Below, in pieces: positions 5,985 through 34,512 of a stretch of 41,792 bases of DNA. The notes beneath the pieces are model-generated. The model was not told the DNA's origin. It saw nothing but the letters and a program-made list of their open reading frames with translations, and made no database searches. The stretch covers positions 1 through 41,792 of the IMG/VR virus record IMGVR_UViG_3300022745_000070. One strand, given 5' to 3'. The stretch is from a virus. Every line of letters begins with the position of its first letter. Positions within the stretch are counted from its first letter, which is position 1. Both the position numbers and the translations under genes were made by a program.

Positions 5985-6130
5985 CCGCCGCCGAGCTCGC
6001 GGGCTCCATTCGTGAGCGGTGCTGTATCATGGCGAGCGTGACGCACACCCCGATCCCGTGGTTTCTCTCGCTGCGGCTCGACGAGCTCGCGGAATGGGAG
6101 AGCGCCGCGGCCAAGATGCAGGAGGGGTAG
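5969..6130 (+). CDS. E' extension of the tail assembly chaperone, made by -1 frameshift
   Basis: After a -1 slip at the T7 tract, reading continues for 53 codons in the new frame, giving a fusion of about 179 residues (126 from the first frame plus 53). The extension ends with IPWFLSLRLDELAEWESAA, the short aromatic and Leu/Glu-Trp pattern of P2 E' and related GT-type extensions that bind the tape measure. Independent start at ATG 6029 would give only 33 residues and has no good ribosome site, so frameshifting is the likelier route. It stops four bases before the tape measure start. Confidence 0.72.
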   Translation, partial: SRRGVTAAELAGSIRERCCIMASVTHTPIPWFLSLRLDELAEWESAAAKMQEG

Positions 6131-6133
6131 GCG

Positions 6134-8272
6134 GTGGGCAGGATCTACGAGACGGCGATCAAGATCGCCGGCAAGTTGACCGGCACCCTTCCCGCCGATG
6201 CGCTGCGCGCCGCGGGGAGCCTCGCGCAGCTCCGCAAGCAGGCCGCGGCGCTGCGGAAGGAGCAGGAGCGCGTCGGAGGAGCCCGGCGGGCGGTCGACGC
6301 CCACGCCGCCACCGCGGCCGCGGTCGAGGGCGCCAAGCGGCGCTACGACGCGGCGGTCGAGGCGGCGAACCGCCTTGCGGCCGTCGAGGGCGCCGCAGGG
6401 GTTGAGGCATCGGCGGCGGATCGCCGCGCCCGCCACGCCGCGGTGCTCGAGGTCAAGGCGGCGCAGCGCGAGATCGACCGGGCGCGCAAGGCGACGGAGC
6501 GCAACGCGGCCGCGGTGAAGCGCGCGGGAATCGACGTCGCGCAGCTCGCCGCGGAGGAACAGCGGCTCGGGGCCGCCGTGCTCGCGACCGATCGCAAGTT
6601 GCGGCTCGGCGAGGTCGGGGCCCGTCACTTCGGGCAGACGATCGAGGCGGTGCGCAAGCGCGCCGGCGCCTACTCGACCGTTGAGGGCAGCTTCGGCCGC
6701 GTGGGCGCCTCCGTGCGCTCCGTGGCCGACGACGCGGTGAAGCTCGCCGCCGGGGCGACGCTCGCAACGGGAGCCGTCGGCGCGCTCGTGCTGCGCGTGC
6801 TGCACACCGGCGACGAGATCGGGGACACCGCCGACAAGCTCGGGGTGGGCACCTCGGCGCTGCAGGAATTGCGGTATGCCGCCGAGCAGTCGGGCGCCGA
6901 AGTGGGCTCGCTCGACGCGGGCCTCCGCAAGCTCGCGATCAACGTGGGCAAGGCGGCCGCGGCGAAGCGCAAGGGCGGCGGGTTCTCGGGCGAGGTCGGG
7001 GGCCTGCAATTCCTCGGCGGCGGCGGAGGCTCGGCGCAGACGGTCGACCCCTTCGCCGCGGCGGGCCTCTCGGCGCGCACGCTGGCGAAGCTCAAGCCCG
7101 AGGAGCAGCTACAGCGGATCGCCGACGCAATGGCGAAGCTCAAGACGCGCGACGAGCGCGCCGCGTTCGTGACCGCCACGCTTGGCAAGGGGGCAACGGA
7201 GCTGCTCCCGCTGCTCGAGCAGGGCAGCGCCGGGATCGCGCAGATGATGGCGCAGGCGCACCGCTACGGCGGGGTGCTCACGCCCGCGCAGGTCGCCGCC
7301 GCCGACCAGGCCGACAAGGCGATGCGGGACGCGAAGCTCGCGATCGGCGGCGTCGCCGCGACGCTCGGCGGCGCGCTGCTCCCCGTAGCGACGCGCACCT
7401 TCCGCACGCTCTCGCAATGGGTCGCCGACAACCGCGACAAGATCCGCGCGTGGGCGGAGCGCTTCGCCGGCTTCCTCGAGGGCAAGGCGATCCCGGCGCT
7501 GGTCAAGCTGCTCCCCGTGGTCGAGCGCGCCGGCGAGCGCTTCGCGGGGTGGCTCTCGACCGCCTCGCGGCTCGTGGGCGGGGTCGAGAACCTCGGCGGC
7601 GCCCTCGTGGCGCTGCGGCTGGCGCCTACCGCCGTGTCGGTGGGGAGCCTCGCCGTCAACTTCGGCCGGCTCGCCTTTCAGATCCGGCAGGCGCAGGCGG
7701 CGAGCAGGGCGCTTGCCGCGGCGTCGGCGGCGCAGGGAGGCGCGGGCGCCGCGCAGGCCACCGGCGCCGCCGCTTCGATCGCCGGCTCCGCGGTGGCGAT
7801 CAAGGCGGCCCTCGCCGCTCCGACCCTCGGCGCCGCGATCGCCTCGGGCGGCGCGCTCGTGGTGGGCGGCATGGTGGCGGCGGCCGGCGGCATCGGGGCC
7901 TTGATCGGCACCGGGATCCGAAAGGTGCTCGATACCGACGAGCTCCTCGGCGGCAAGGGCGGTGCGCTCGATCGGCTGTTCGGTGCCGCGACGCCCGACG
8001 AGGAGCAGGAGACGGAGCGGCTCAACAACTACGCCCGCGTGGAGGGAGGCAAGCGCCGCCAGCGCGACGCGCTCGAGGCGGGCCCGCGGCCGCGGCCGCC
8101 GTCCGACTCCACGCGGCCCGAGTTGAACCTCACCGTGAACCTGCCCGGCGGCAAGACGGCGCCGGAGGATCTGACGCGCGCGCTCAAGGCGGCCTCGCCC
8201 GAGCTGCTCGCCGCGGTGCAGCGGCTCCTCACGCAAAGCGAGCGCGACCGTCGGAGGCTCTCCTATGGCTAG
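6134..8272 (+). CDS. tail tape measure protein
   Basis: A 712-residue protein that sets tail length and later helps DNA enter the cell. The first 180 residues are Ala/Arg/Glu-rich coiled coil with repeats such as AAALRKEQERV. A hydrophobic stretch around 203-222 is followed by GDEIGDTADKLGVGTSALQELRY, typical of P2-type tape measures. Further Gly/Ala hydrophobic segments lie around 550-600. The GTG start has GGAGG upstream inside the end of the chaperone extension. It is shorter than many tape measures, which predicts a fairly short tail. It overlaps the X gene by eight bases. Confidence 0.9.
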   Translation: MGRIYETAIKIAGKLTGTLPADALRAAGSLAQLRKQAAALRKEQERVGGARRAVDAHAATAAAVEGAKRRYDAAVEAANRLAAVEGAAGVEASAADRRARHAAVLEVKAAQREIDRARKATERNAAAVKRAGIDVAQLAAEEQRLGAAVLATDRKLRLGEVGARHFGQTIEAVRKRAGAYSTVEGSFGRVGASVRSVADDAVKLAAGATLATGAVGALVLRVLHTGDEIGDTADKLGVGTSALQELRYAAEQSGAEVGSLDAGLRKLAINVGKAAAAKRKGGGFSGEVGGLQFLGGGGGSAQTVDPFAAAGLSARTLAKLKPEEQLQRIADAMAKLKTRDERAAFVTATLGKGATELLPLLEQGSAGIAQMMAQAHRYGGVLTPAQVAAADQADKAMRDAKLAIGGVAATLGGALLPVATRTFRTLSQWVADNRDKIRAWAERFAGFLEGKAIPALVKLLPVVERAGERFAGWLSTASRLVGGVENLGGALVALRLAPTAVSVGSLAVNFGRLAFQIRQAQAASRALAAASAAQGGAGAAQATGAAASIAGSAVAIKAALAAPTLGAAIASGGALVVGGMVAAAGGIGALIGTGIRKVLDTDELLGGKGGALDRLFGAATPDEEQETERLNNYARVEGGKRRQRDALEAGPRPRPPSDSTRPELNLTVNLPGGKTAPEDLTRALKAASPELLAAVQRLLTQSERDRRRLSYG

Positions 8273-8474
8273 CAGCTACACGACGCGCAGCCGTGACACC
8301 TGGGATGCGATCGCGTTGCGCACCCTCGGATCCGAGATCTACGCCGACGTGCTCCTCGACGCGAACCCCGCGCACAACCGGGTGGTGCTGTTCGATGCGG
8401 GGACGGTGCTCGTGGTGCCCGACCTGCCGACCCCTTCGCGCGCCGACTCGCTCCCGCCGTGGCGCGTCGCATGA
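8265..8474 (+). CDS. tail protein X, P2 gpX family
   Basis: This 69-residue protein matches the small gpX family: a YTTRSRDTWDAIALRTLGSE start, like the LysM-related opening YRTRAGDTWDxIA, then YADVLLDANPAHNRVVLFDAG and a VVPDLP end. P2 gpX is needed for tail assembly and may contact the tape measure or the gpD-like hub. It lies between the tape measure and D genes, overlapping both, as in many P2-like tails. Confidence 0.85.
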   Translation: MASSYTTRSRDTWDAIALRTLGSEIYADVLLDANPAHNRVVLFDAGTVLVVPDLPTPSRADSLPPWRVA

Positions 8475-9508
8475 GCGACCCGAGCACGCCGCGGCAGCCG
8501 TCGCTCTCTGTCACGTGGCAGGGCCGCGACGTGTCGCGCGATCTGGCGCCCTACCTGCTCGGGCTCACCTATGCCGACAATCTCTCTGGCGCCGCCGACG
8601 ATCTCACGCTCGAGATCGAGGATCGCGAGCACCGATGGTCGAAAGACTGGCGCCCGCAGACGGGTGACACCGTGATCGCGCGGCTGCAGGCGGAGCCGTG
8701 GATCTCGACGGTGCGGGACCTGCGCCTCGGCACCTTCGCGCACGACAAGATCCGCATCGGCGGGCCGCCCTCCGTGGTAGCGCTCTCGTGCGTATCCGCG
8801 CCGCTCGCCTCGGGCCTGCGCCGCCGGAAGCGCACCCGCACGTGGAGCAACGCAACCCTCCGCCAGATCGCCGCCGACGTCGCCGAGCGCGCCGGGCTCT
8901 CGCTGCAATGGACCGGCGCCGAGGGGCGCCGCTACAGCAACCGGAAGCAGGTCGACCGCTCCGATCTCGACTTCCTCGAGGAGCTGTGCGGCGAGGTCGG
9001 CCGGTGCCTCAAGGTGACGGAAGGAACGATCGCGATCTTCGAGGAGCACGATCGCGACACCTCGACGAGCATCGGCAAGATCTCCCTGGTCGGCGGCGAG
9101 GTGCTCGCGTGGGAGTTCGACTCCGACGACTCCGCCCGCTACGGCTCGTGCGTGATCTCATTCTACGATCCGCGCTCGGGCAAGACGCAGAGGGCGCAGT
9201 TCCCGCCCGCCGGGCAGACGGTCGACGGGCTCGACCCCAACGGGCAGACGCTCGAGATCAACCTGGGAAGCGATGATCTCGGCGAGGCCGCGGACAAGGC
9301 GCGCGCGCTGCTCCGCGCGGCGAACCGCTTTGCAACTTCGGGCACGCTCACCACGCGCGGGGACCCCGGCCTCGTCGCCGGCGTGGTCTTTGAGCTCGTC
9401 GACTCGGGCGGGTTCGATGGGCGGTTCGTGATCACGAAGGCGACGCACCGACCGTGCGCGGGCTACGTGTGCGAGTTGCAGGTGCGCCGCACGCTCGAGG
9501 GGTTCTAG
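8471..9508 (+). CDS. tail hub protein D (phage late control D family)
   Basis: A 345-residue hub protein of the P2 gpD / gp27-like family that joins tube and spike. Typical elements are LSVTWQGRDVSRDLAPYLLG at the start and ADDLTLEIEDREHRW. A middle LQWTGAEGRRYSNRKQ then DLDFLEELCGEVGRCLKV domain and a C-terminal GDPGLVAGVVFELV follow. The ATG at 8471 overlaps the X stop as ATGA and is preferred to the GTG four codons upstream. The neighbouring spike gene V follows within three bases. Confidence 0.88.
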   Translation: MSDPSTPRQPSLSVTWQGRDVSRDLAPYLLGLTYADNLSGAADDLTLEIEDREHRWSKDWRPQTGDTVIARLQAEPWISTVRDLRLGTFAHDKIRIGGPPSVVALSCVSAPLASGLRRRKRTRTWSNATLRQIAADVAERAGLSLQWTGAEGRRYSNRKQVDRSDLDFLEELCGEVGRCLKVTEGTIAIFEEHDRDTSTSIGKISLVGGEVLAWEFDSDDSARYGSCVISFYDPRSGKTQRAQFPPAGQTVDGLDPNGQTLEINLGSDDLGEAADKARALLRAANRFATSGTLTTRGDPGLVAGVVFELVDSGGFDGRFVITKATHRPCAGYVCELQVRRTLEGF

Positions 9509-9510
9509 CG

Positions 9511-10062
9511 GTGGGCCGGCACCCCCTCGCCCTCGACGGTTTCGGCGGGCTCCTGCGGTGGGGAGTGGTCGACTCGCTCGTCGAGGAGACGCACCGCGCC
9601 CGCGTGAAGTTCGCCGAGATCGACGGCGGCGTGAGCTACGATCTCCCGGTGCTCGTGACCCATCCCGGCGACTACAGCCTGCCCCCCGTCGGCGCCGCCG
9701 TGTTGTGCGCCATCCCGCCGGGGACCCGCGGCGACGGGTTCGTGCTCGGCACCTTCTACACCGACGAGGCGAAGCCCCCCGGGAGCATGGGGGCGGGGAA
9801 GCGTTCGATCGCCGGCGACGATCTGCGCCTCGGCGCCTCCGACGCCTCCGACGCGGTGGCGCTCGCCCCCAAGGTGAAGGACAACGCCGACCGGCTCCAC
9901 GATCACCTCGAGGCGCTCGAGCGCGTGATCCAGGGCGCGCCCATCCCCGAGCCGGGCAACGGGGCGCCCTCGGCGCTGCAGGCCGCGCTGCAGGCCGCGC
10001 TCGCGGCCTCGCCCCTTCCCGACGTGGGCGACGTCGCGGCCGGAAAGGTCAAGGCGTCGTGA
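9511..10062 (+). CDS. baseplate assembly / spike protein V
   Basis: A 183-residue protein of the P2 gpV / Mu gp45 type. The N-terminal OB-like domain has LLRWGVVDSLVEETHRARVKF and VLVTHPGDYSLPPVGAAVLC, then GDGFVLGTFYTDEA, all typical of the family. It would form the membrane-piercing spike under the hub. The C-terminal part is Ala-rich and lacks a recognisable HxH iron-binding tip, so the needle apex may be a different protein. GTG 9511, three bases after the D stop, gives the conserved N-terminus. Confidence 0.82.
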   Translation: MGRHPLALDGFGGLLRWGVVDSLVEETHRARVKFAEIDGGVSYDLPVLVTHPGDYSLPPVGAAVLCAIPPGTRGDGFVLGTFYTDEAKPPGSMGAGKRSIAGDDLRLGASDASDAVALAPKVKDNADRLHDHLEALERVIQGAPIPEPGNGAPSALQAALQAALAASPLPDVGDVAAGKVKAS

Positions 10063-10472
10063 GCCTCGCCGTGCTCGCCCCCAAGGGCTCGACCGATCGC
10101 AACGCTCAGATCGTCTTTGAGGCGTCGAGCGATCGCCTGCGCACGTGGGCGGAGGCGCGCCGAGAGGGCGCCGGGCGGTGGGCGGTGCTCGAGGTGTGGC
10201 AGGCCAAGCCCAAGCGCGAGCGCATCGGCCCCGGCCTCGACTCGATCACGCTGACGATCCGCCTCGACCTGCAGCGCGGGGTCGTGCCGCGCGACGAGCT
10301 CCGCAAGCTGCGCGCCTACCGCGACAAGGGAACGATCCTGCAGCTCTCCGTCGGCGGGGATCTGGTCGGCGACTACACGGTCGACCAGCTCGCCGAGCAA
10401 TGGCAGCGCGTCGACACGCGCGGCGTGCTCCTCGTCGCGATAGTGGAGCTCACCCTCGGGGAGTATAACTAG
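10059..10472 (+). CDS. tail protein U, P2 gpU family
   Basis: A 137-residue protein with GTG start overlapping the V stop. It follows the gpU pattern: an NAQIVFEASSDRLRTWAEA start, GLDSITLTIRLDL, then LRKLRAYRDKGTILQLSVGG and a strand-rich GVLLVAIVELTLGEYN end. In P2 it is needed for tail completion. Its place between V and W differs from P2, where U follows the tape measure. Confidence 0.78.
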   Translation: MSLAVLAPKGSTDRNAQIVFEASSDRLRTWAEARREGAGRWAVLEVWQAKPKRERIGPGLDSITLTIRLDLQRGVVPRDELRKLRAYRDKGTILQLSVGGDLVGDYTVDQLAEQWQRVDTRGVLLVAIVELTLGEYN

Positions 10473-10476
10473 CCCC

Positions 10477-10758
10477 GTGGCGACCTGGATCAACTGGAAC
10501 CCCTCGCCGGGCGAAGAGGTGGCGCAATGCGTGCGCGCGCTGCTCAAGACGGCGCCGGGCTCCGTCCCCTTCGCGCGGGGCCTCGGCACGCCGCAGGATC
10601 TCCTCGACGAGCCGCAGAGCATCGCCGGCGCGCAACTGCAGGCCGCGGTGATCTCGGCGGTGCGAACCTACGAGCCCCGCGTCGACGTGCCGCGCGTGAC
10701 CCTCTCGGCAACCGCAGACGGCGTGCTTTCGGCTACCGTGGAGATCGGCCCCCCATGA
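10477..10758 (+). CDS. baseplate wedge protein W (gp25-like)
   Basis: A 93-residue protein of the GPW/gp25 family, a lysozyme-like-named but non-enzymatic wedge component. It has PSPGEEVAQCVRALLKTAPGS, the R-G-L-G-T loop and a final beta region with TLSATADGVLSATVEI. It starts just four bases after U and overlaps J by four bases. In T4, gp25 starts sheath polymerisation, and the same role is expected here. Confidence 0.85.
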   Translation: MATWINWNPSPGEEVAQCVRALLKTAPGSVPFARGLGTPQDLLDEPQSIAGAQLQAAVISAVRTYEPRVDVPRVTLSATADGVLSATVEIGPP

Positions 10759-11942
10759 GCGACCCGAGCTTCGCCGTCAAGGATCCCCGGCAGATCGTCG
10801 CCGACGCGCTCGAGGCGTATCGCGTCGCCACGATCACCGCTAGCAAGCCGGATGGGGTGCGGCTCGCGCCCGCCGACCCGAGGCGGCTTCACCTGCAGGC
10901 CCTGCTCGCGATCGTGTCGCAACTGCGCGGCCTCGTCGACTACGCGGGGAAGCAGAACCTCGTCGACTACGTGGGCGAGGAGTGGATCGAAGCGCTGGCG
11001 GCCCTGTGGGGCCTCGAGCGCATCCCTGCCGGCCCGAGCAAGACGACGATCCGATGGGTGCCCGCCAGCGTCGGCGGCGTGATCTCGATCCCCGGCGGCG
11101 TGCGCGTTAGCGATGGCACGAGCTCGTGGGCGGTCGACGCCGACACGGTGAGCGACTCGGGCGCCGACTACCTCGACACGCCCGCCACCTGCACCGCGAG
11201 CGGCTCGGCGAGCAACGGCGTCGCGATCGGGCAGATCGCGATCATCGTCGACCGTGACCGCGTGCCCGGCATCGCGAGCGCCGCCAATACGACCGAGACG
11301 ATCTCGGGGCGCGAGGTCGAGACGCTCGAGGAGCTGCGCGCGCGGCTGCGCCTCGCGCCCGAGTCGACCGCGATCGCGGGACCGCGGGCCGCCTACCAGG
11401 CGATCGCGCTGGCGGCCTCCGCCAACGTGGCCGACGCCGTGGCGCTCGCACAGGCCGACGCCGCCGAGATGGCCGGGAGCGCGCCGGGCTCGGGCGAGGT
11501 GCAGATCAAGGCGATCGAGGGCACGCGCGACGCTTCCGGGGCGCTCGTGTCGGTGATCCCCGATCCCTCGTCGGGCCTGCTCGCGGCGGTGCTCGCGGCG
11601 TGCTCCGCCGAGACGGTGCGGCCGCTGACCGACTACGTGACGATCTCGGCGCCCCGGTTCGTCGACGTGGATCTCGACGTCACGTACTGGATCGCGCGCA
11701 GCCGCTCGCGGCAGTCGACCGCGATCCAGGCGGCCGTCGTCGCCGCCTTCGAGGCGTTCCAACTGTGGCAGCAGTCGGCGATCGGGCGCGACGTCAACCC
11801 CGACCGCCTGCGCGCCGCGCTGGTCGACGCTGGCGCCAAGAGGACCACGATCGCATCGCCGGCCTTCGCCGCGCTCAAGCGCGACGAATGCGCCCGCATC
11901 CGCTACGTGTCGATCGCGTTCGCCGGGGTCGAGGATGATTGA
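10755..11942 (+). CDS. baseplate wedge protein J
   Basis: A 395-residue baseplate J protein (P2 gpJ / Mu gp47 family). It shows LVDYVGEEWIEALAALWGLER, then IPGGVRVSDGTSSWAVDAD, GREVETLEELRARLRL and a C-terminal PLTDYVTISAPRFVDVDLD, which are landmark regions of the family. It forms baseplate wedges with W and I. The ATG at 10755 overlaps the W stop, and the end overlaps the I start. Confidence 0.9.
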   Translation: MSDPSFAVKDPRQIVADALEAYRVATITASKPDGVRLAPADPRRLHLQALLAIVSQLRGLVDYAGKQNLVDYVGEEWIEALAALWGLERIPAGPSKTTIRWVPASVGGVISIPGGVRVSDGTSSWAVDADTVSDSGADYLDTPATCTASGSASNGVAIGQIAIIVDRDRVPGIASAANTTETISGREVETLEELRARLRLAPESTAIAGPRAAYQAIALAASANVADAVALAQADAAEMAGSAPGSGEVQIKAIEGTRDASGALVSVIPDPSSGLLAAVLAACSAETVRPLTDYVTISAPRFVDVDLDVTYWIARSRSRQSTAIQAAVVAAFEAFQLWQQSAIGRDVNPDRLRAALVDAGAKRTTIASPAFAALKRDECARIRYVSIAFAGVEDD

Positions 11943-12513
11943 GATCGGCGGCGTCTCGCTGCTCGACCTGCTCCCCGAGTCGATCGCCGACGACGCCGAG
12001 GTGCGGGCGATCTCGCTCGCGCTCGATCCCGAGGTGCGCGCCGTCGCTGCCGCGCTATGGCAGGCGGTGGTGTGGCCGGCGCTCGACGATGCCGCCGAGC
12101 CGGTGCTCGACGAGGTGGCGCGGGGCCTCGGGCTGCAGGAGTTGCAGCTATGGGATCTCGCGAGCATCGACGGCAAGCGGGCGATCCTGCGCGGCTGCAT
12201 GGCGTGGCGGAAGCGCTCGGGGACGCTCTACGCCCTCCGCCACGCGGTCGAGCTCCTCGAGGTCGAGGGGAAGATCGTCGAGTGGTGGGAGGAGTCGGCG
12301 GCGCCGTTCACGTACCGCCTGCGGCTCGTGGTGACGGGCGGCCCCGGGCTCACGCTGAAGCACTTCCTCGCGCTCGACGAGCTCGTGCGGCGCTTCACGC
12401 CGACCCGGGCGCAGCTCTCCGAGCTGGCGGCGGAGGCCGACTCTTCCGGGCGCGTCCTGTTGTACCCTGCGCTCACCGTGGCGCACTTCACGGAGATCGG
12501 GCACTACCCATGA
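11935..12513 (+). CDS. baseplate protein I (tail protein I family)
   Basis: A 192-residue protein matching P2 gpI: an N-terminal VSLLDLLPESIADDAEVRAI, the KRAILRGCMAWRKRSGT motif close to the family R-x-L-I-x-x-S-x-x-x-H-R-x-K-G-T signature, and the AVELLEVEGKIVEWWE region. It links wedges to fibres. It overlaps J by eight bases and the fibre gene by four. Confidence 0.85.
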   Translation: MIEIGGVSLLDLLPESIADDAEVRAISLALDPEVRAVAAALWQAVVWPALDDAAEPVLDEVARGLGLQELQLWDLASIDGKRAILRGCMAWRKRSGTLYALRHAVELLEVEGKIVEWWEESAAPFTYRLRLVVTGGPGLTLKHFLALDELVRRFTPTRAQLSELAAEADSSGRVLLYPALTVAHFTEIGHYP

Positions 12514-13016
12514 CGGCACCGGCCTACTACGCGAGGATCACCGACCTTGGGCTCGTGCGGCTCGCGGCGGCGCAGTATTCCGGGGTTCCGCTCGTGTTTG
12601 CCCACGTCGCCGTCGGTGACGGCAACGGCTCCCCGATCACCCCCTCGCCGAGCATGACGGCCCTCGTGCACGAGCGCGCGCGCGTCGCCGTGAACAACAC
12701 CGCGATCTCGCCCGACGCGCCGCACGTGCTGCGCGTGGAGGGCCGGATCCCGTCGGACGTCGGCGGCTTCACCATCCGCGAGGCGGGCCTCTTCAACGTC
12801 GCCGGCGAGTTGATCGTCGTCGCGAGCTACCCGCCGACGTACAAGCCCGAGCCCGCCGACGGCGTGACCGTCGAGGAGTACGTGCGCGTGCTCGTCGAGT
12901 ACGCCGCCGTGGAGGCGGTGCAGCTCACGACCGATCCCTCCGTGGTGACGGCGACGCTGCGAGACGTCGAGGATGCGACGGCGGGCGGCCTGTGGCTGTT
13001 CTACAACTTCACCTAG
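12510..13016 (+). CDS. tail fibre N-terminal protein (collar-fibre type, P2 gpH-like start)
   Basis: A 168-residue protein with the N-terminal attachment domain of P2-like tail fibres. It shows YYARITDLGLVRLAAAQ, VAVGDGNG, a positive PDVGGFTIREAGLF-type motif (here SDVGGFTIREAGLF) and VRVLVEYAA. Normal fibres continue for hundreds of residues into shaft and tip. Here the gene stops soon after the attachment domain (WLFYNFT), so the shaft and tip may come from the following genes. A CAC leader follows the stop, so the next gene begins a new translation block. Confidence 0.78.
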   Translation: MTAPAYYARITDLGLVRLAAAQYSGVPLVFAHVAVGDGNGSPITPSPSMTALVHERARVAVNNTAISPDAPHVLRVEGRIPSDVGGFTIREAGLFNVAGELIVVASYPPTYKPEPADGVTVEEYVRVLVEYAAVEAVQLTTDPSVVTATLRDVEDATAGGLWLFYNFT

Positions 13017-13046: not shown

Positions 13047-13505
13047 ATGTCGACCCCGATGTTCGTTCGTGAACCGCAGAACCGCGCCGACTACATCGAC
13101 GCTGGCGGCTCCGTCTCGTTCATGCTCGCGGGGCACGCGAGCGCGTCGAGCCCCGAGACTTACACCGGCTGGATCGCGCAGGCGGTCGACGAGGCCCTGC
13201 TCCTCGAGGATCTCTTCTACTGTGTCGGCCCGGGACAGGTCGGCGGCGGCGACACGAACACCGACGCGGGCGAGCTGCTCCTGTGGATCAAGCGCGCCGC
13301 GGCCACCGATGCCGACGAGCGGATCCCGATCGCGAGCTACCCGATCGCCGCGCCGGGCTCGGGCAAGCGCGCCTCGGGGCGCCTGTCGCTCAACCTCACG
13401 CTTGGGGTCGGCGACACGCTCTATGCGTCGCACACGATCCAGAAGAACGGCGCCGCCGGCTACGTGGCCCTGGGGCTCGTCGCGACGGGGGGGGTAGTGC
13501 GATGA
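13047..13505 (+). CDS. unknown fibre-region protein 1
   Basis: A 152-residue protein of unknown family. It is preceded by a CAC leader and GAGGAGC. The sequence is mixed alpha/beta with Gly-rich turns and no membrane segment. It lies directly after the fibre attachment protein, so a fibre, tip or fibre-chaperone role is inferred from place only. Its last codons run through eight G bases. A -1 slip there, by the ribosome or by mutation, would join it in frame to the next gene as a 388-residue fusion. Confidence 0.65.
   Translation: MSTPMFVREPQNRADYIDAGGSVSFMLAGHASASSPETYTGWIAQAVDEALLLEDLFYCVGPGQVGGGDTNTDAGELLLWIKRAAATDADERIPIASYPIAAPGSGKRASGRLSLNLTLGVGDTLYASHTIQKNGAAGYVALGLVATGGVVR
13487..13494 (+). 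repeat. G8 tract at the junction of two fibre-region genes
   Basis: Eight G bases lie three codons before the stop of the upstream gene. In its frame they read G GGG GGG G, which is a valid -1 slippery site. The -1 frame has no stop before the next gene, whose ATG at 13502 is in that frame. The tract could act by ribosomal frameshifting or by changes in tract length (phase variation). Confidence 0.5.
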
Positions 13506-14212
13506 AGGGCCAGGCGCGCGGGCCGCGGGGCCTCTCCCGCGCCGTTGCTGTCCCCACGGGCAAGGCGTCGGCGCTCCTCGTGCACGGCGCGCCCGAGATC
13601 GTCGTGGTCGGCGGCTCCGTGAGGCTTGTGTGGCATGGGGTACCGGGGCTGGACGAAACGGCGTTTGCCGTCGGATCGACCGCCTACGTGCAGGAGCTCG
13701 ACACCGGAATAAATCGCGGGTGGGGTGTATTCGTCGATCTGGACTCGGCAACCGGTCGGGTTGCGCTCTCCCCTTCCGCCAAGGTCGGATTCACGGGGGT
13801 ATCTCCCACCTCCTTTTCCGAATGGTTCGTCGCGCTCGGGGCGGGGTTTTCCCCTCCGCGGCTCAACTACAGGTGCGAAGGGGTGGCATCGGGAAGCGTG
13901 CTCGCCGAGCGCGCGATCGGTGTCGTGAATGAGTCGAGGTCATTCGACTCCATTTCATTCGTTTTTGATTCCGGGTTCACGCCCGACGGCACCAACAACT
14001 GCGCGATCCGGCTCAAGCGCTATCCCGTCGGTGGCCCATCCGTCGACATCATCACCTTCCCTCTCACCCCGGGCGGCTCGGGGACGATCACGGCGTTTGC
14101 GAACAAGGACGTCGAAGACTCGATCGACTTGATCGCCGGCGACGTGCTCACGCTCGAGATCATCAAGGCGGGCGCCGGCGCGACGGTTCCCCCGTTCGTT
14201 GTCGTGATCTAG
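13502..14212 (+). CDS. unknown fibre-region protein 2, lower-GC insert
   Basis: A 236-residue protein without a recognised family. The first 50 residues have neighbour-like codon use. From about base 13700 to 14000 the DNA turns less GC-rich, with A/T third positions and T-runs, then returns to normal. That suggests a recombined receptor-binding segment. The protein is beta-rich with no membrane helix, in keeping with a fibre or tip domain. ATG 13502 overlaps the previous stop as ATGA. A 7-bp inverted repeat lies at 13931-13950. Confidence 0.65.
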   Translation: MKGQARGPRGLSRAVAVPTGKASALLVHGAPEIVVVGGSVRLVWHGVPGLDETAFAVGSTAYVQELDTGINRGWGVFVDLDSATGRVALSPSAKVGFTGVSPTSFSEWFVALGAGFSPPRLNYRCEGVASGSVLAERAIGVVNESRSFDSISFVFDSGFTPDGTNNCAIRLKRYPVGGPSVDIITFPLTPGGSGTITAFANKDVEDSIDLIAGDVLTLEIIKAGAGATVPPFVVVI

Positions 14213-14222
14213 GCGTCGACGC

Positions 14223-15014
14223 ATGAGCTATCGCGTCATCGGGGGGGCGTTCGACTTGGGCGGACTCTCCTCGTCAACGGCTTGCGTGCTGCTCAACCCT
14301 CGCGCCTCCGACTTGATCCGCGCCGCCGTCGGGGACGGCTGGATCCATGCCGAGCGCTTCGGATCGGGCGGAGGCTCGCCCGGGCCCGACTACTTCGCTT
14401 TCTTCTACGACCCCGCGACGCGCAAGGCGCCGAGCCCCGCCGTCCACCTCGGGGGATGGATCGCGACGCTCGGATCGACCATCGCCGGCGTGCACGTGCT
14501 CGTCGACCAGGGCGACGGCCGATGGCTCCCGGGCGAGGTGGTTTCTACTGCGGCCGCGGTGTCGGCGCCGGCTCGCACGCTCGGGCGCGGGGAGCTGTGC
14601 TTCACGCTGCGCGGCAACTCCGCGCCGAACCCGACGCTCGACGGCCCGATCCCCTCGTCGACGTTCGTGCTCGTGGGGCAGTCGAGCGGCGATGGTGCTT
14701 GGTGGCTCGGGCCCGACCCCAAGACGCCGACGCTCCACGCTTTCGACTACACCGTCGGGCAACAGGTCGACGACGGCGGCGGCGTGATCATGGTGCAGCA
14801 GACCCTCCTGCCCGCGCGGGCGGTGCTCGTCGCCGGCGAGGTCGCCGCCGTCGGAAAGATGCTGTGGAAGATCGCCGACGGGCAGCTGACCCTCGTACAG
14901 CAAGCCGGCGCGCTCCCGGCGGCGATGGTGGCGGCGGCGTGCGACTCGACGGCCGGCCCGACGTCGATTGAGACGTTCACGCTCGGGCCCTGGATCATGC
15001 TGGCCCTGCCGTGA
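14223..15014 (+). CDS. unknown fibre-region protein 3
   Basis: A 263-residue beta-rich protein with repeated Gly, Pro and Thr/Ser turns and a GDGRWLPGEVV-type strand pattern. No enzyme motif or membrane segment is seen. It ends just where the glycosyltransferase gene begins (GTGA overlap), so it belongs to the same transcript. A fibre tip or carbohydrate-binding role is possible from its place, and it could be a substrate of the sugar enzymes that follow. This is inference. Confidence 0.6.
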   Translation: MSYRVIGGAFDLGGLSSSTACVLLNPRASDLIRAAVGDGWIHAERFGSGGGSPGPDYFAFFYDPATRKAPSPAVHLGGWIATLGSTIAGVHVLVDQGDGRWLPGEVVSTAAAVSAPARTLGRGELCFTLRGNSAPNPTLDGPIPSSTFVLVGQSSGDGAWWLGPDPKTPTLHAFDYTVGQQVDDGGGVIMVQQTLLPARAVLVAGEVAAVGKMLWKIADGQLTLVQQAGALPAAMVAAACDSTAGPTSIETFTLGPWIMLALP

Positions 15015-18000
15015 TCGTCGACCTGCTCGCGCGCTCGTGGGGCGCGCCGTCGGGGGCCCCCGACGGGATGGCGCAGGCGACGGCGTTCCTTGCGTGGACG
15101 CTCGCGGATCTCGGGCATCGGGTGCGCTGTCACGGCGAGCGCGAGGTGGCGCGGTGGGCGCGGCCCGGGCTCTCGTGGCACGCCCGGCCGGGCTCGCCGG
15201 TGCCGATCGACTGGCAGGCGGATCTCGTGATCTCCTCGACCGCGGCGAGTTGGCGGAAGCTCGCGGTCGCCGCAGGCGATGCCGGCGCGCGCTCGCGCGT
15301 GGCGCTGTGGCACCACTACGGGACGCCCCCGTCGGGCTACGGCTGCAGGCTTGCGCTCCCGACCCCGGGCGAGGCCGACGCCCGCGAATGGGATCGCGTG
15401 GTGGTGCTCCCGCCCTCGACGTGGGCGCTCGACCAGGCGGCAAGCGCGCAGGAGGCGCCACCGCCGGCTCCCGATGGGGTGGTGCTCGTGCCAAGCGCCG
15501 CCCGGGTGAAGGGCGGGCACGTGGCGCTCGCGGTGGCGCGGCTCCTGCCCGCGGTGCGCTTCCTCGTGCTCGCCGGCCGCGCCACGGTCGCCGAGGTGGC
15601 CGACTGGCGCGGGCTCCCCAACGTCGAGATCCTCGAGGGGGTGCAGATCCCGAGCGCCTACCTCGACCGCGCGGCCGCGGTGATCTCTCCCACCGTCGCC
15701 GAAACATACGGGCTCACCGTCGCCGAGGCCGCGGCTCGTGGTGCGCGCGTCGTGTGCTCCAACCTGCCCGGCCCGCGGCACGCGCTCGGCGAGGGGACGG
15801 GGGCGATCTTCCTCGCGCAGACGGCGCCGATCGCGCAATGGGCCGACGCGATCGTTCTCGCGCTGCGCTCGCCCGCGCGCCCGCTGCGGCTGCGGCCCTA
15901 CCGCGAGACGGTCGCCGAGGCGATCGAGCAGCTCGCGGCGGGAGCTCCTGCAGCCGCGCCGGCGCCGGCCCGGGCGGTGGATCCTGCGCGTCATGCCACC
16001 GCCGGCCGCATGCGCCCGGCCCCCTCGGCGCCGCCGGCGCCCTCGAGCATCGCGGCGGCCTCGCCGGGATCGCGGCTGCACCTGGGGTGCGGCGGCAAGC
16101 GGATCCCCGGCTGGATCAACTCCGACGCGGTGGCAGGCCGCGGCGACGTGGTGATCGATCTGCGGCGGCCCAACCTGCCCGCGGACACCTTCCGGGCGAT
16201 CTACGCCTCCCACGTGCTCGAGCACGTGCACGCCGAGGAAACGCCCGCGATCCTCGCCCACCTCGCGGCGGCGCTCGAGCCGGGGGGCACGCTGCGGATC
16301 TCCGTCCCCGACCTGCGGCTCGTGGTCGACAACTGCATCAACGGGCACGCGTACGGCGGCGAGGCGTCGGCCCTGTCGGTGCTTTTCGGCGGCGACTACT
16401 CGGCGCGGACGGCGGATCCCGACCGGCACCGTCAAGCGTTCTGGCGGGAGCGCCTCGAGCGCCTGCTCCTCGAGGCCGGGCTCGTGAACGTGCGCGCGTG
16501 GCGCCCGGGGCAGTACCCCGAGATCGACGCGCTCGCCGACTTCGCGACGCACCCGCGCGACGCGCGCACCGGCTGCTCCTCGATCTCGCTCAACCTCGAG
16601 GCCGATCGGCCGGCCGCGGTGCGGTCGAGCGCTCCGCCCGCACCGGCCGCGCCTCCCACGGTCGCCGCCGCCGCCACCGGGCCCGCGGTGGTCGACGTGT
16701 CGGTGCTACTCGGCACCGTGCGGCGCCCCGAGCTCCTGCGCGGGTGCGTCGAGGCGATCCGCTCCTCGCTCGCCGGCTCGCGGTTCTCGCACGAGATCGT
16801 GATCGCCTACGGCGACGCCGAGGATCCGGCGCTCCCGTGGATGCGCGAGCAGGCAGACGTGGTGCCGGTGCTCGGGGGCATGACGGGGGCGATCGACGCC
16901 TTCAACCGTGGGTACCTCGCAACCGTCGGGCGCTACGTGTGCCAGATCAACGACGACGTCGTGATCCTCGGCGACGCGCTCGCGCGCTCGCTGCGCCACC
17001 TCGAGGAGCGCCGCGACGTCGCCGGCGTCGTGTGGAGGTTCGACCGCGGCGACGGGCTCGGGATGCGCCACGAGCACCTCGCGGGCGAGCTGCACCCAAA
17101 CCAGATCACGATCCGCCGGGAGGCCCTCGAGGCGGTGGTCGAGCGGCTCGGGGGGTTCTGGGGCGACCAGGCGCACCGCTCCGATCGCACCTATGGCGGC
17201 GACTCCGCCCTCGGCGTGCTGTGCCACCACCTCGGGCTGCGCCTCGATTCGGTCGATGGGGTCGAGTGCCGCGACCTGCTCCACGAGGATGCGCTGCGCG
17301 CTCGCAACAAAGCGGCGATCGCGGCCGACCATTGGCCCAAATGGCGCGCGCTGTTCGTGCCCCTGTCGACCAGCAAGGCGGCGCCCCCCACGGCGACGGA
17401 GTGGCCCCGGCTCTACGTGCCGCGCCCGGGCATGCCCCCGCGCCGCTCGCCGCTCGCCGCGGGTTCCCCGTTGCGGCTCCTGCACCTGTCGCTGCGCTAC
17501 GACGGCGAGCCGCAAGACGGGTTGCGGCGGGAGCTGGCGCGGATCGGGCCCACCGTCGAGATCCCTTGGTACAACCGCGACCCGCGCGAGATCGCCGCGA
17601 CTGCTCGCGCGCACCGGCCGGATCTCGTGTGGGCGCAGATCCAATCCTCGGCGTGGTCCCCCGAGATGACGCGCTCGCTTCGCGCGGCGCTCCCGCCGGG
17701 ATGTTGCCTCGCGCTGTGGACCGGCGACGTGCGGACCGGGGGCGCCGCTCCCGTCGAGCGGTGGCTCGCCGAGGCCGGCGCCGGCTTCGATCTTCTCCTC
17801 GCCGACTCGATCACCTATGCGCGCAAGCTCGCGGTCGACGAGCGCGTCGCCGCGGCGTGCGGCTATCTCGGCTGCGGCATCGATCCCGACTTGAACCCGC
17901 CCGCCGACGGGAGCGACCCCGAGGAGCTCGGCGCCGTGTTCCTTGGCGGCCACCATCGGCACCTCGGCGGCGACCGGGAGCAGGTGCTCGGGCACCTCGC

Positions 18001-18460
18001 GCGTGCGTTGCCGCGCTCGCTCACGATCTACGGCTCGGGCTGGCGCGGCTCGCCGCTCGAGCCGCTCGTGCGGCCCTTCGCCGCGCAGGCCGACGCCGCG
18101 CGCATCATGCACCGCGCCAAGGTCACGATCTCCACGAGCCTTTTTCACGATCTCGAGCGCTACACCTCCGACCGGCTCAAGCGCGCGATGCACGCGGGCG
18201 CGGTGGTGGCGGTGCGGCGCTTCCCCGATATGCAGGGCCTCGGGCTCGTCGAGGGGGACAACTGCATCGGGTGGGAAGCGCCCGCCGAGCTGGTCGAGGT
18301 GGTGCGCAAGTGGAGCGGCCCGGCGATGGCGCCCGAGCGCCTGCGCCTGCGGCGTGCGGCCTCCGCGCTGGCGGCGGAGCGCTTCACGTGGGCGCGGGTG
18401 GTGGAGGAGCTGCTCGCGATCGTGCGAGACTGGCGCGCACGTCGAGGGATGCCCGCATGA
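15011..18460 (+). CDS. four-module glycosyltransferase-methyltransferase-glycosyltransferase-glycosyltransferase protein
   Basis: A 1149-residue fusion. Residues 1-310 form a GT-B glycosyltransferase (GT4-like), with the donor-site pattern SPTVAETYGLTVAEAAARG at about 226-244. After an Ala/Pro linker, residues 353-530 form a class I SAM methyltransferase opening with LHLGCGGKRIPGWINSD, and including HVLEHV and ALEPGGTLRISVPD. After a second linker, residues 560-790 look like a GT2 GT-A domain with QINDDV as the metal-binding acidic motif at 646-651. Residues 820-1145 resemble CgeB-type GT-B enzymes, with YLGCGIDPD and STSLFHDLERYTSDRLKRAM. It could build and methylate a glycan on a virion protein, DNA or the host surface. 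The GTG start overlaps the previous stop. One continuous frame shows no damage. Confidence 0.85.
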   Translation: MIVDLLARSWGAPSGAPDGMAQATAFLAWTLADLGHRVRCHGEREVARWARPGLSWHARPGSPVPIDWQADLVISSTAASWRKLAVAAGDAGARSRVALWHHYGTPPSGYGCRLALPTPGEADAREWDRVVVLPPSTWALDQAASAQEAPPPAPDGVVLVPSAARVKGGHVALAVARLLPAVRFLVLAGRATVAEVADWRGLPNVEILEGVQIPSAYLDRAAAVISPTVAETYGLTVAEAAARGARVVCSNLPGPRHALGEGTGAIFLAQTAPIAQWADAIVLALRSPARPLRLRPYRETVAEAIEQLAAGAPAAAPAPARAVDPARHATAGRMRPAPSAPPAPSSIAAASPGSRLHLGCGGKRIPGWINSDAVAGRGDVVIDLRRPNLPADTFRAIYASHVLEHVHAEETPAILAHLAAALEPGGTLRISVPDLRLVVDNCINGHAYGGEASALSVLFGGDYSARTADPDRHRQAFWRERLERLLLEAGLVNVRAWRPGQYPEIDALADFATHPRDARTGCSSISLNLEADRPAAVRSSAPPAPAAPPTVAAAATGPAVVDVSVLLGTVRRPELLRGCVEAIRSSLAGSRFSHEIVIAYGDAEDPALPWMREQADVVPVLGGMTGAIDAFNRGYLATVGRYVCQINDDVVILGDALARSLRHLEERRDVAGVVWRFDRGDGLGMRHEHLAGELHPNQITIRREALEAVVERLGGFWGDQAHRSDRTYGGDSALGVLCHHLGLRLDSVDGVECRDLLHEDALRARNKAAIAADHWPKWRALFVPLSTSKAAPPTATEWPRLYVPRPGMPPRRSPLAAGSPLRLLHLSLRYDGEPQDGLRRELARIGPTVEIPWYNRDPREIAATARAHRPDLVWAQIQSSAWSPEMTRSLRAALPPGCCLALWTGDVRTGGAAPVERWLAEAGAGFDLLLADSITYARKLAVDERVAAACGYLGCGIDPDLNPPADGSDPEELGAVFLGGHHRHLGGDREQVLGHLARALPRSLTIYGSGWRGSPLEPLVRPFAAQADAARIMHRAKVTISTSLFHDLERYTSDRLKRAMHAGAVVAVRRFPDMQGLGLVEGDNCIGWEAPAELVEVVRKWSGPAMAPERLRLRRAASALAAERFTWARVVEELLAIVRDWRARRGMPA

Positions 18461-19380
18461 CCCGCCCCAAACCCCGCATGATCGGCGCCGACCACCCCGG
18501 CGCCGAGCGCTACGCCGCCCTCGTCGAGGAGCGTTACAACCTCGGCACCCTGCGCGGCATGACCGCCGCCGACTTCCTCGCCGCCGTCGAGCCGTTCGCC
18601 TCGCGCGCGGCCTACGACAGATGGGCGGCCGTCTACCGCGCCAACGTGGGGACCTTCCTTGATCATCCCGTGTGGGGAGCGGACCGCCGGATCGGCCCGG
18701 GCGCCTACTTGCACGGCGCGATGGATGATCGGTTTGCGAGCAACGCGGCGCGGCTGTTCGGCGCTCCCGCGGGGCTGCGCCACGAGCACGTCGCGGGCAA
18801 GGCGTGCGCCCTCGTGGGCGCGTGGGATGGCACGGAGGCGCTACTGCTCCACGCTCTCGGGGCCCGGCGCGTCGTGTGCGTGGAAGAGGTGCCCGACTTC
18901 GCCGCGATGGCGCGCACGCAGCTCCGCGCGTGGCAGGTGCCCGGCGAGGTGCGCACGTGCTCGCTCTACGAGATCGACCCGACCGAAGATGAATGGTGGC
19001 AGGCGTTCGATCTCGTGTACGTGCCCGGCGTGCTCTACCACCTCACCGATCTACCCCTCGCCGCGGTGATCCTCTGGTCGATGCTGCGACCAGGCGGAGC
19101 GGTGGCGATCGAGTCGATCGCGGATCCGCCGGGGCCCTGCTCGGCGCGCTACCTCGGCGCCGCGGTGCCCGGCTGGAATTGGTGGGCGCCCACCTGCACC
19201 GCCTACGAGGCCCTGCTGCGCGATGCGGGTTTCCCCGACGCGCGCACGGCAGAGTACTCACGCGGGCGCGGGTGGTGGTGCGGCACGCGCGGCGAGCGCC
19301 TGCCCGCCCTGGAATCCGCGGCCGCCGGCTTTTCGCGGCCGGATCTCCTGCGCCGCATCCGGGGGCTTGTGGCACGCTGA
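18457..19380 (+). CDS. SAM-dependent methyltransferase, CmoB/DUF1698-like
   Basis: A 307-residue protein overlapping the stop of the four-module gene as ATGA. It has the class I methyltransferase fold: a VGAWDGTEALLLHALGA segment at the SAM-binding position (an atypical motif I with GAWDGTE in place of GxGxG), VVCVEE as the acidic second strand end, then FDLVYVPGVLYHLTDL and MLRPGGAVAIES. The layout resembles CmoB and related methyltransferases that act on small molecules or nucleosides. Coupling to the sugar enzyme suggests methylation of the same glycan or its precursor. The substrate is not visible from sequence. Confidence 0.75.
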   Translation: MTRPKPRMIGADHPGAERYAALVEERYNLGTLRGMTAADFLAAVEPFASRAAYDRWAAVYRANVGTFLDHPVWGADRRIGPGAYLHGAMDDRFASNAARLFGAPAGLRHEHVAGKACALVGAWDGTEALLLHALGARRVVCVEEVPDFAAMARTQLRAWQVPGEVRTCSLYEIDPTEDEWWQAFDLVYVPGVLYHLTDLPLAAVILWSMLRPGGAVAIESIADPPGPCSARYLGAAVPGWNWWAPTCTAYEALLRDAGFPDARTAEYSRGRGWWCGTRGERLPALESAAAGFSRPDLLRRIRGLVAR

Positions 19381-32247: not shown

Positions 32248-32837
32248 TGGATCCGATCCGGTTCACGATCGGGCGCTCCCCGACCACGAAGAAAAATTCA
32301 CCACGGATCTTCTACGTGGGGGCGAGGTGTCCGCGCTGCAAAAAGGGCGACCGCCCGATCGTGAGCCCGTCGGAGGATTTCGCCGACTACGAGCGCGCCG
32401 TGGCGCCGCCGCTGCAACGTCGGTTCGCCGAGTTGCGCGGCGGCGCTGCGGTGACGTGCACCAACTGCAAAGGCACCGGACGCAAGCGCTCTCGCCCGTG
32501 CCTGCGGTGCCTCGGCGCGGGCCGCTCCGCGCAGCCGATCGAGGTGCCGGTGCTCGTCGAGGCGAGGATCTACCGCGCGCGCAACTTGGGGGATCTGTCG
32601 GGCTACCTCGACGCGATCGGCGACGTGCTGCAGACGGCCGGGGTTGTCGCCAATGACCGGCAGATCCAGGGATGGCCGATGCCCACCGACGGCGCGCTCC
32701 CGCTGCGCCTCGACCCGGCGCGCCCGCGCGTCGAGCTCGTGATCACGCCTCTTGCCCCCGAGGAGCTGCAGGCGCCCCTCGACTTCGCCGACCCCGACGA
32801 CAACGATCCGCCCGACTCCGACGAGGCCACCGAATGA
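32247..32837 (+). CDS. RusA-type Holliday junction resolvase with zinc-finger insertion
   Basis: A 196-residue protein. The ends match RusA: FTIGRSPTTKKNSPRIF at the start and GDLSGYLDAIGDVLQTAGVV then NDRQIQGW and PRVELVITPL at the end. Between them residues 28-91 hold three C-x2-C pairs, two in a DnaJ-like C-x2-C-x-G-x-G form (CTNCKGTG, CLRCLGAG). Where E. coli RusA has catalytic D-x-D-N and a Lys, this protein has D-L-S-G and an Asp, so the active site is unusual. It would cut Holliday junctions or D-loops. Confidence 0.75.
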   Translation: MDPIRFTIGRSPTTKKNSPRIFYVGARCPRCKKGDRPIVSPSEDFADYERAVAPPLQRRFAELRGGAAVTCTNCKGTGRKRSRPCLRCLGAGRSAQPIEVPVLVEARIYRARNLGDLSGYLDAIGDVLQTAGVVANDRQIQGWPMPTDGALPLRLDPARPRVELVITPLAPEELQAPLDFADPDDNDPPDSDEATE

Positions 32838-33676
32838 CCGCTCCGCGCTACGAGCTCCTCCGAGGCGAGACGCTCCTCGAGCTGCTCAAGATCCCCGACG
32901 GCTCGATCGACGCCGTGATCACCGATCCGCCCTACTCCTCCGGCGGCGCCTTCCGCGGCGATCGCATGGCTTCCACCACGCTTAAATACGTCTCTTCCTC
33001 GACGAAGATCGAGCGCCCCGACTTCACCGGCGACACGCGGGATCAACGCGCGTTCGCTTATTGGGAAGCGCTGTGGCTCGCCGAGTGCCTGCGCGTGTCG
33101 CGCCCGGCCGCCCCGCTGTGCGTGTTCACCGACTGGCGGCAGATCGGAGCGACGATCGATGCGGTGCAGGCCGGCGGGTGGATCTATCGCGGGATCGTCC
33201 CGTGGGACAAGGGCGAGGGAGTGCGGCCGAAGCTCTCGCGCCCCCGCAATCAGTGCGAATACATCGTGTGGGCGAGCAACGGGCCGATGCCCGAGCGGCC
33301 CGGCGTGCCCGTGCTCCCGGGGTGCCTGCGCGTGCCGGTGCTCGTCGCTGAAAAGCGACACATCGCGGGCAAGCCGATCGAGCTCATGCGGGCGATCAAC
33401 CGGCTGTGCGTGCCCGGCGGGACCATCCTTGACCCCTTTGCCGGCTCGGGCTCGACCGGGATCGCCGCGCTGCTCGACGGCTATCGGTTTGTCGGGATCG
33501 AGCGCGAGGCGTCCTACTGCGCGATCGCCGAGGCCGGGCTGCGCGAAGCGGCCTCCGCCGGGGTGCAACGGATGCTCCTCGACGTCGAGGCGCCCCGCCC
33601 GCCCGCGCATGGTGCGCTCGCTCTCGACCAGGCCGACCAGGCGGGCGAGGCGCCCGAGCCCGAGGCCACCGAATGA
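32834..33676 (+). CDS. DNA N6-adenine or N4-cytosine methyltransferase 1
   Basis: A 280-residue beta-type methyltransferase. Motif IV DPPYSSGG is at 31-38 and motif I DPFAGSGSTG at 200-209. The order, catalytic motif before SAM motif, is the beta class typical of N4/N6 enzymes. The gap between them contains the target-recognition region. It starts four bases inside the resolvase end. With no nuclease partner in the window it is an orphan methyltransferase, likely protecting the phage from host restriction. The C-terminal tail is acidic and Ala/Pro-rich. Confidence 0.87.
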   Translation: MTAPRYELLRGETLLELLKIPDGSIDAVITDPPYSSGGAFRGDRMASTTLKYVSSSTKIERPDFTGDTRDQRAFAYWEALWLAECLRVSRPAAPLCVFTDWRQIGATIDAVQAGGWIYRGIVPWDKGEGVRPKLSRPRNQCEYIVWASNGPMPERPGVPVLPGCLRVPVLVAEKRHIAGKPIELMRAINRLCVPGGTILDPFAGSGSTGIAALLDGYRFVGIEREASYCAIAEAGLREAASAGVQRMLLDVEAPRPPAHGALALDQADQAGEAPEPEATE

Positions 33677-34512
33677 CGGCCGCCCTCTTCGCCTCGCCCT
33701 CGGCGCAGGTGCTCCTCGCCGAGTGGCGCGCGCTCGCCGAGCACGTCGAGGCCGGCGGGGGAGCCGACGCGCTGCTCGTCGACGCGCCCTATTCGGAGCG
33801 GACGCACACGGGGCACGATGACGCCGTGGCGCCGTCGAGACTCGACGGCGAGGAAGCGCGGATGCGCCGCGACGCGCGCACGGGCGCCGTCTATTCCGTC
33901 GGCCTGAACCGTCGCCGCGCCATCGACTACAGCGCGTGGACGCCTTCCGACGTGGGCGCGTTCGTCTCGCGCTGGTCGCCTCTCGTGCGCGGCTGGATCG
34001 TCTCGATCACCGACCACGAGCTCGCCCGCGCGTGGGAGCAGGCCCTGACGGCCGCGGGCCGCTACACGTTCGCGCCCCTGCCCTACTACGCGCCCGGCTC
34101 GCGCGTGCGCCTCGCCGGCGATGGGCCTTCCAACTGGACCACCTGGATCGTCGTGTCGCGCCCGCGCTCGCGCGACTTTCAACGGTGGGGCACGCTCCCG
34201 GGCGGATACGTGCTCCCGGCCGGGCAAGGCGGAAAGCTCCCCGTCGTCGGAGGAAAGCCGATCTGGCTCATGGAGCAGCTCGTCGAGCACTACAGCCGGC
34301 CCGGCGATCTCGTGGTGGATCCGTGCTGCGGCGCGGGCACCACGATCGCCGCGGCGATGCGCCGAGGTCGGCGCGCCATCGGCGGCGACGCCCTCGAGGA
34401 GCACGCCCGGCTCGCCGCGGCGTGGGCCGCCAACCCCAACTTGCCCGGCCCGCGCGGCGAGGCCACCGGCGCCGCGGATCCGGCGCAGCCTTCCCTGTTC
34501 GCCCCGAGGTGA
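33673..34512 (+). CDS. DNA methyltransferase 2, N6/N4 type with DAPY
   Basis: A 279-residue protein with the same class of fold. Motif IV is DAPY at 37-40, with Ala in place of the usual first Pro, and motif I is DPCCGAGTT at 216-224. The SAM-side helix AIGGDALEEHARLA follows. It overlaps methyltransferase 1 by four bases. The variant motif IV can still hold the target base, so the enzyme is probably active on a second sequence. The two proteins are not close copies. Confidence 0.78.
   Translation: MTAALFASPSAQVLLAEWRALAEHVEAGGGADALLVDAPYSERTHTGHDDAVAPSRLDGEEARMRRDARTGAVYSVGLNRRRAIDYSAWTPSDVGAFVSRWSPLVRGWIVSITDHELARAWEQALTAAGRYTFAPLPYYAPGSRVRLAGDGPSNWTTWIVVSRPRSRDFQRWGTLPGGYVLPAGQGGKLPVVGGKPIWLMEQLVEHYSRPGDLVVDPCCGAGTTIAAAMRRGRRAIGGDALEEHARLAAAWAANPNLPGPRGEATGAADPAQPSLFAPR

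Follow-up and report, generated by a model that had tools for sequence, protein, structure and literature searches.

A four-module transferase fusion behind phage fibre genes and its constant GT4 module

Why would a phage place several sugar- and methyl-transferring enzymes, most of them joined in one protein, directly behind its fibre genes? The question is raised by positions 15011-19380 of the linear, incomplete IMG/VR record IMGVR_UViG_3300022745_000070 (41,792 bases, 73.5% GC), which was analysed in full length and is called the window below. This locus, the cassette, consists of a four-transferase fusion gene and a separate methyltransferase gene. The fusion is real, conserved and interpretable, and the main point, which was absent from the initial annotation of this DNA, is the constancy of its first module: as judged from sequence comparison, this N-terminal GT4 glycosyltransferase (GT), named the anchor here, is kept constant in two phage clades, whereas the remainder of the cassette is exchangeable. 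The cassette as a whole is very probably a glycan assembly line.

The fusion gene and its modules

The features of the cassette are as follows, where L009 and L093 are two relatives of the window (the latter a contig of a metagenome-assembled genome, MAG), SAM is S-adenosylmethionine and pLDDT is the predicted local distance difference test score.

15011..18460, + strand: four-module transferase, 1149 amino acids, with a GTG start overlapping the upstream stop (GTGA) and a full-length homologue at L093 6505-9981
15011..15940, + strand: module 1, GT4/GT-B "anchor" glycosyltransferase, residues 1-310; PF13692, predicted GT-B fold, intact E231-x7-E239
15941..16066, + strand: Pro/Ala-rich linker, residues 311-352, the place where L009 splits into two genes; pLDDT about 30-40 over most of it
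16067..16600, + strand: module 2, class I SAM methyltransferase, residues 353-530; PF13489, motif RLHLGCGxKRxxGWxNxD and HVLEH intact
16691..17440, + strand: module 3, GT2-like (GT-A) transferase, residues 561-810; PF00535, conserved NDD (DxD-type) motif
17462..18457, + strand: module 4, CgeB/Glyco_trans_1_2 GT-B transferase, residues 818-1149; PF13524, predicted GT-B fold
18457..19380, + strand: second, separate class I SAM methyltransferase, 307 amino acids; PF08241, ATGA overlap with the fusion

The initial annotation had described one uninterrupted 1149-residue protein, and the open reading frame (ORF) 15011-18460 is indeed intact and open throughout. Its start codon is supported by aligned homologues, the methionine of which falls on the same column. 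The GTGA overlap joins a 263-amino-acid gene to the fusion, and the ATGA overlap joins the fusion to the second methyltransferase.

The domain reading (GT4, SAM methyltransferase, GT2 and CgeB-like) was borne out by Pfam matches, all four modules lying above the curated cut-offs, the GT2 barely. Module 1 matches PF13692 at residues 174-285 (42 bits; cut-off 27), module 2 matches PF13489 at residues 390-494 (37.8 bits; cut-off 27) and module 4 matches PF13524 at residues 990-1136 (37.7 bits; cut-off 25). The PF00535 match of module 3 at residues 564-715 (24.2 bits; cut-off 23.3) is marginal alone, and its homologues score 33.2 in L009 and 25.7 in L093. Pro/Ala-rich linkers lie between modules 1 and 2 and between modules 2 and 3.

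An AlphaFold model of the fusion was built from an alignment of 10 rows; its pLDDT averages 65.5 and is far higher in module 1. Folds were compared with VIA-align. Both outer modules are predicted to have a GT-B fold: residues 1-315 are matched by GT4 enzymes, among them BshA (Z 22.8), and residues 806-1147 (approximate bounds) by GlgM (Z 19.6, spanning 819-1143) and TreT (Z 19.4). For module 3 the model confidence is low (pLDDT 41 in a single-sequence model), and its best PDB profile match, SpsA, has an E value of only 0.013. Foldseek against viral models returned single-domain GT matches, some of them to giant-virus multi-GT proteins, which were not taken as homology. No membrane-span-like hydrophobic segment was found in the fusion or the second methyltransferase; the top-scoring one falls on a helix and strand of the GT4 domain in the model.

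Degraded active sites had been named as a reason to doubt the enzymes, and the E-x7-E, SAM and NDD motifs are instead conserved in homologues. The anchor E-x7-E is kept in eight further distinct phages, with spacing x8 in L012; the module 2 motif LHLGCGxKRxxGWxNxD is conserved across aligned homologues; and the NDD of module 3 is shared by the window, L009 and L093, with the usual DDGS position reading AYGxxx.

The protein of 18457-19380 matches PF08241 (30.5 bits; cut-off 21.2) and is 62-63% identical to that of L009 11769-12701. It had been called a CmoB-like methyltransferase overlapping the fusion; the overlap and the methyltransferase assignment hold, but the CmoB identity does not, as the TIGR00452 equivalog model gives only 20.5 bits where 275 are required and the likeness is at superfamily level only.

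Relatives with the anchor and their exchangeable partners

Homologous fusions were looked for in other phages. Scanning IMG/VR and GTDB contigs with single peptide sequences did not recover the homologues. Close phage relatives were found by a profile search of IMG/VR with the baseplate protein J, and an anchor profile search found L089, L090, L091, L092, L094 and the MAG contig L093. In L093 the same four modules lie in one frame (1158 amino acids), homologous to the window fusion from end to end at 43% identity. In L009, the J of which is 55% identical to that of the window, the cassette has the same gene order with module 1 as a separate gene (7515-8393; 44% identity) and modules 2-4 as one 809-amino-acid gene (8390-10819; 63% identity). 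Chance, a chimeric assembly and a single-phage oddity are ruled out by the single frame of L093 and by the identity and gene order of L009. A direct search of 50,697 phage genomes for the fusion gave no match at E 1e-5 and only weak matches to the methyltransferase module at relaxed limits, and no other fusion was found in 38 genomes from the order of the L093 MAG.

Both relatives have an additional gene. The L093 fusion is followed directly 3' by a GDSL/SGNH-like esterase gene (9978-10613; score below cut-off) and then by a methyltransferase, and L009 contains a gene with weak polysaccharide pyruvyltransferase likeness (10816-11778; 15.7 bits, below cut-off), which is missing in the window.

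Besides the window, the GT4 anchor is present in eight distinct phages (L009, L010, L012, L089/L092, L090, L091, L093 and L094; the near-identical L089 and L092 count as one, and L012 is cut by a contig end), always just downstream of P2-like baseplate and fibre genes. Its partners differ. The methyltransferase-GT2-CgeB set is fused in the window and L093 and split in L009. L091 and L094, which are 65% identical over the full length, have the anchor and a GT2 and then a methyltransferase-like region (so called by eye, without a Pfam match), and L090, which has the first 530 residues or so in common with them, joins anchor and GT2 to a different C-terminus. A second GT4 is the partner in L089/L092, where it is fused, and in L010, where it is a separate gene. 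Trailing methyltransferases occur in the window, L009, L091, L093 and L089. Behind the GT4-GT4' fusion, L089 (8835-14809) and L092 encode two methyltransferases, a radical SAM protein, another SAM-like protein and an amidotransferase of the asparagine-synthase type; for a tail operon, such a glycan or small-molecule set is unusually rich.

J splits the backbone into two clades (window, L009, L010 and L012; L089, L091, L093 and L094) with 34-41% identity between them. The anchor broadly tracks this split, with the window anchor on a long branch. Since both clades contain the methyltransferase-GT2-CgeB set, this set must either be old or have moved. GT4 (PF13692) was found in six of six anchor records and in none of 38 other phage records with related baseplates; this tally is partly circular and no independent statistic, since five of the six positives were picked by the anchor itself and only L009 was found independently through the baseplate gene (L010 and L012 were found likewise, but stand outside the tally).

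Single modules have bacterial homologues, and the cassette might thus be cargo taken from host polysaccharide clusters without a virus-specific role. We regard this as the least probable reading of all: fusion, motifs and position are conserved across two phage clades whose J proteins have diverged so far, and third-position differences in modules 2-4 exceed those at first and second positions.

The likely target of the cassette

The window begins with a head-protease-like gene, followed by genes for head decoration, major head protein, sheath and tape measure, and continues with baseplate, tail protein I, collar fibre, the cassette, a lysis-like gene and the replication region. Its tail resembles those of Vibrio X29, KLER1-1 and Paenibacillus Lily (sheath identity 41-45%), and no GT annotation was found in the fibre-to-lysis interval of these three, the closest phages with a name. 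Further downstream, two adjacent overlapping ORFs (32672-33676 and 33673-34512) each match the phage DNA methyltransferase family phrog_67.

Three unknown fibre-region genes had been reported upstream of the cassette. Three such genes are present, but the collar gene preceding them is recognizable as a PF12571 fibre N-terminus:

12510..13016, + strand: short tail-collar fibre protein, 168 amino acids, PF12571 domain alone (144 bits); 62-68% identical in L009, L010 and L012
13047..13505, + strand: fibre-region protein, 152 amino acids; 26-34% identical in L009, L010, L012 and L089
13502..14212, + strand: fibre-region protein, 236 amino acids, candidate acceptor, N-terminal RGPRG motif
14223..15014, + strand: fibre-region protein, 263 amino acids, candidate acceptor, without a family match; start/stop-coupled to the fusion (GTGA)

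The genes just before the anchor encode small fibre-region proteins differing from phage to phage. In seven of nine anchor genes the anchor start overlaps the preceding fibre-region stop by 1-4 bases, and in L089 and L093 the distance is short. The window collar protein lacks the receptor-binding part, and most anchor phages have the same short form: it measures 165-174 amino acids in 6 of 8 anchor phages and in 1 of 12 others (p 0.004, ignoring relatedness). An RGPRG motif stands at the N-terminus of otherwise unrelated fibre-region proteins (window 13502-13540, L012 2946, L089 6554 and L093 6129), and the protein with it directly precedes the anchor in L012, L089/L092 and L093; the other J-related loci compared have no such motif on their + strand.

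From four intact modules, a conserved fusion, a constant anchor with exchangeable partners, and a constant position coupled to the fibre operon, all read from sequence, we infer the activities, their order, the sugars, the acceptor and the benefit (adsorption, stability or evasion). The region 15011-19380 would be a late-expressed cytoplasmic glycan assembly line acting on the phage's own tail. The constant GT4 would put the first sugar, from a host nucleotide-sugar, onto a structural protein of the phage, the most likely acceptor being one of the small fibre or tip proteins whose genes lie immediately upstream (13047-15014). Extension of the glycan would fall to the GT2 and CgeB-type modules, and the internal and separate methyltransferases would O-methylate its sugars, giving a capped, methylated oligosaccharide. 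As the extenders are exchanged among relatives and the first enzyme is kept, the outer part of the glycan would vary between phages. No sugar-nucleotide epimerase was found, so the host would have to supply the donor sugars. A virion protein is the probable target, and the odds lean slightly towards the tail fibre in particular as the putative acceptor of a methylated oligosaccharide.

A further, rather unlikely elaboration is a modular "fibre glycan code", in which the constant GT4 would start the glycan at a conserved site, perhaps near RGPRG, and swappable GT, methyltransferase, radical SAM and amidotransferase modules, fused or trailing, would give a phage-specific methylated outer glycan for adsorption or evasion. 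Such a glycan might partly replace the long protein fibre, as suggested by the collar cut down to its short form.

Several points weigh against a glycan built on the fibre. In the GT2 module, a first Asp motif of the DDGS type is not obvious. Conservation among the upstream fibre-region genes is poor; for a constant anchor to act on such variable acceptors, these would have to contain a hidden invariant site, for which RGPRG is only a candidate. Four-base gene overlaps are common in dense phage late operons, and the coupling alone is weak evidence. The window anchor is less similar to that of L009 (44%) than modules 2-4 are (63%), and it therefore evolves fast or was swapped. Finally, where similar modules occur in bacterial enzymes, the genes belong to clusters for cell-surface polysaccharides.

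This last point leads to the strongest alternative, which we consider possible but not probable: that during infection the cassette places a methylated sugar branch on an envelope glycan of the host, such as lipopolysaccharide (LPS) or capsule, and so keeps progeny from adsorbing to debris or relatives from superinfecting. The nearest multi-module bacterial enzymes by sequence, from Azospirillum 4B and N. vulgaris, lie in surface polysaccharide-type clusters, and soluble GT4 and GT2 enzymes also act in LPS-core and O-antigen assembly. However, no Gtr-type membrane GT, flippase-type gene or polymerase was seen, the cassette enzymes have no transmembrane segment, and in every case the cassette lies behind fibre genes inside the virion late operon. 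For lifestyle and ALTERNATIVES, integrase PF00589 was not found in the window and six anchor records but is present in 16 of 38 others, an absence that is suggestive only, as most records are fragments and the window is incomplete; serine recombinase and rve transposase were likewise not found in the window and anchor records. The lack of a recognizable integrase or membrane GT in the anchor phages argues against lysogenic serotype conversion.

Another alternative keeps the glycan on the virion but places it on the capsid, tail tube or sheath instead of the fibre, in the manner of the mycobacteriophages Che8 and Corndog. Known phage virion glycosylation targets capsid and tail tube, according to a secondary account (PMC12363180), and a soluble cassette in the late operon would suit this too; but the cassette consistently adjoins fibre genes, not head genes, and this alternative appears unlikely. 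An unrelated phage (L004, MW202573.1) has, between P22-type coat and tail genes (5992-7178), one gene for a methyltransferase and another that resembles GT2 (match just below cut-off), possibly another virion-glycosylation pair.

DNA hypermodification, in which the GTs would glycosylate a modified base and protect the phage DNA, is highly improbable. Phage GTs are known to glycosylate DNA and the window has DNA-methyltransferase-like genes, but no thymidylate-synthase-type base hydroxymethylase was found in the window or its relatives, leaving hypermodification without its usual first step; moreover, the cassette lies in the structural late operon, and several sequential GTs with sugar-type methyltransferases would be atypical. 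Among the options of the initial annotation (a methylated tail-fibre glycan, decoration of capsid or DNA, host-surface remodelling), the fibre glycan is thus best supported, and DNA modification and lysogenic host-surface remodelling are disfavoured.

Comparison with known systems

To our knowledge, single proteins that combine three transferase activities are rare, and the viral examples with proven function are those of giant algal viruses. No description of an anchored, fibre-linked cassette of several modules was found in open-licence literature. With four transferases, a constant first enzyme and exchangeable extenders linked to tail-fibre genes, the phage fusion would offer a bacterial-virus system in which glycan structure can be varied genetically and the effect on adsorption measured, and the cassette would also supply ready-made enzymes for multi-step glycan building.

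Several known systems resemble the cassette in part. Azospirillum lipoferum 4B WP_162488556.1 and Nitratidesulfovibrio vulgaris WP_011787354.1 likewise fuse a CgeB-type GT or a pyruvyltransferase to class I methyltransferases, and module 2 is 43-46% identical to them over 84-92 residues; however, their module sets and order are different, and they belong to plasmid-borne sugar-enzyme clusters without adjacent phage genes. In GtrABC serotype-conversion cassettes sugar transfer is also encoded by a phage, but these prophage systems rely on a flippase and GTs in the membrane, none of which was found here. Che8 gp110 and Corndog gp38 are glycosyltransferases for capsid and tail-tube glycosylation, so that phage-encoded enzymes decorate virion proteins there too; in the portion of that secondary account considered (PMC12363180), they are described as individual glycosyltransferases, without a four-module fusion or a fibre-linked anchor.

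The best proven analogue is chlorovirus PBCV-1, compared by architecture only, from published descriptions. Its A064R combines two rhamnosyltransferases with a methyltransferase; a second methyl group is put on the same sugar of the capsid glycan by a separate protein, A061L (PMC9614988, PMC7826918). A064R differs from the phage fusion in coming from a eukaryotic giant virus, in having three modules (638 amino acids) rather than four, with other GT families and order, and in acting on a capsid N-glycan. By analogy, the two systems are nevertheless alike in pairing a single soluble viral GT/methyltransferase fusion with a separate methyltransferase, and the PBCV-1 pair acts on the virus's own capsid protein.

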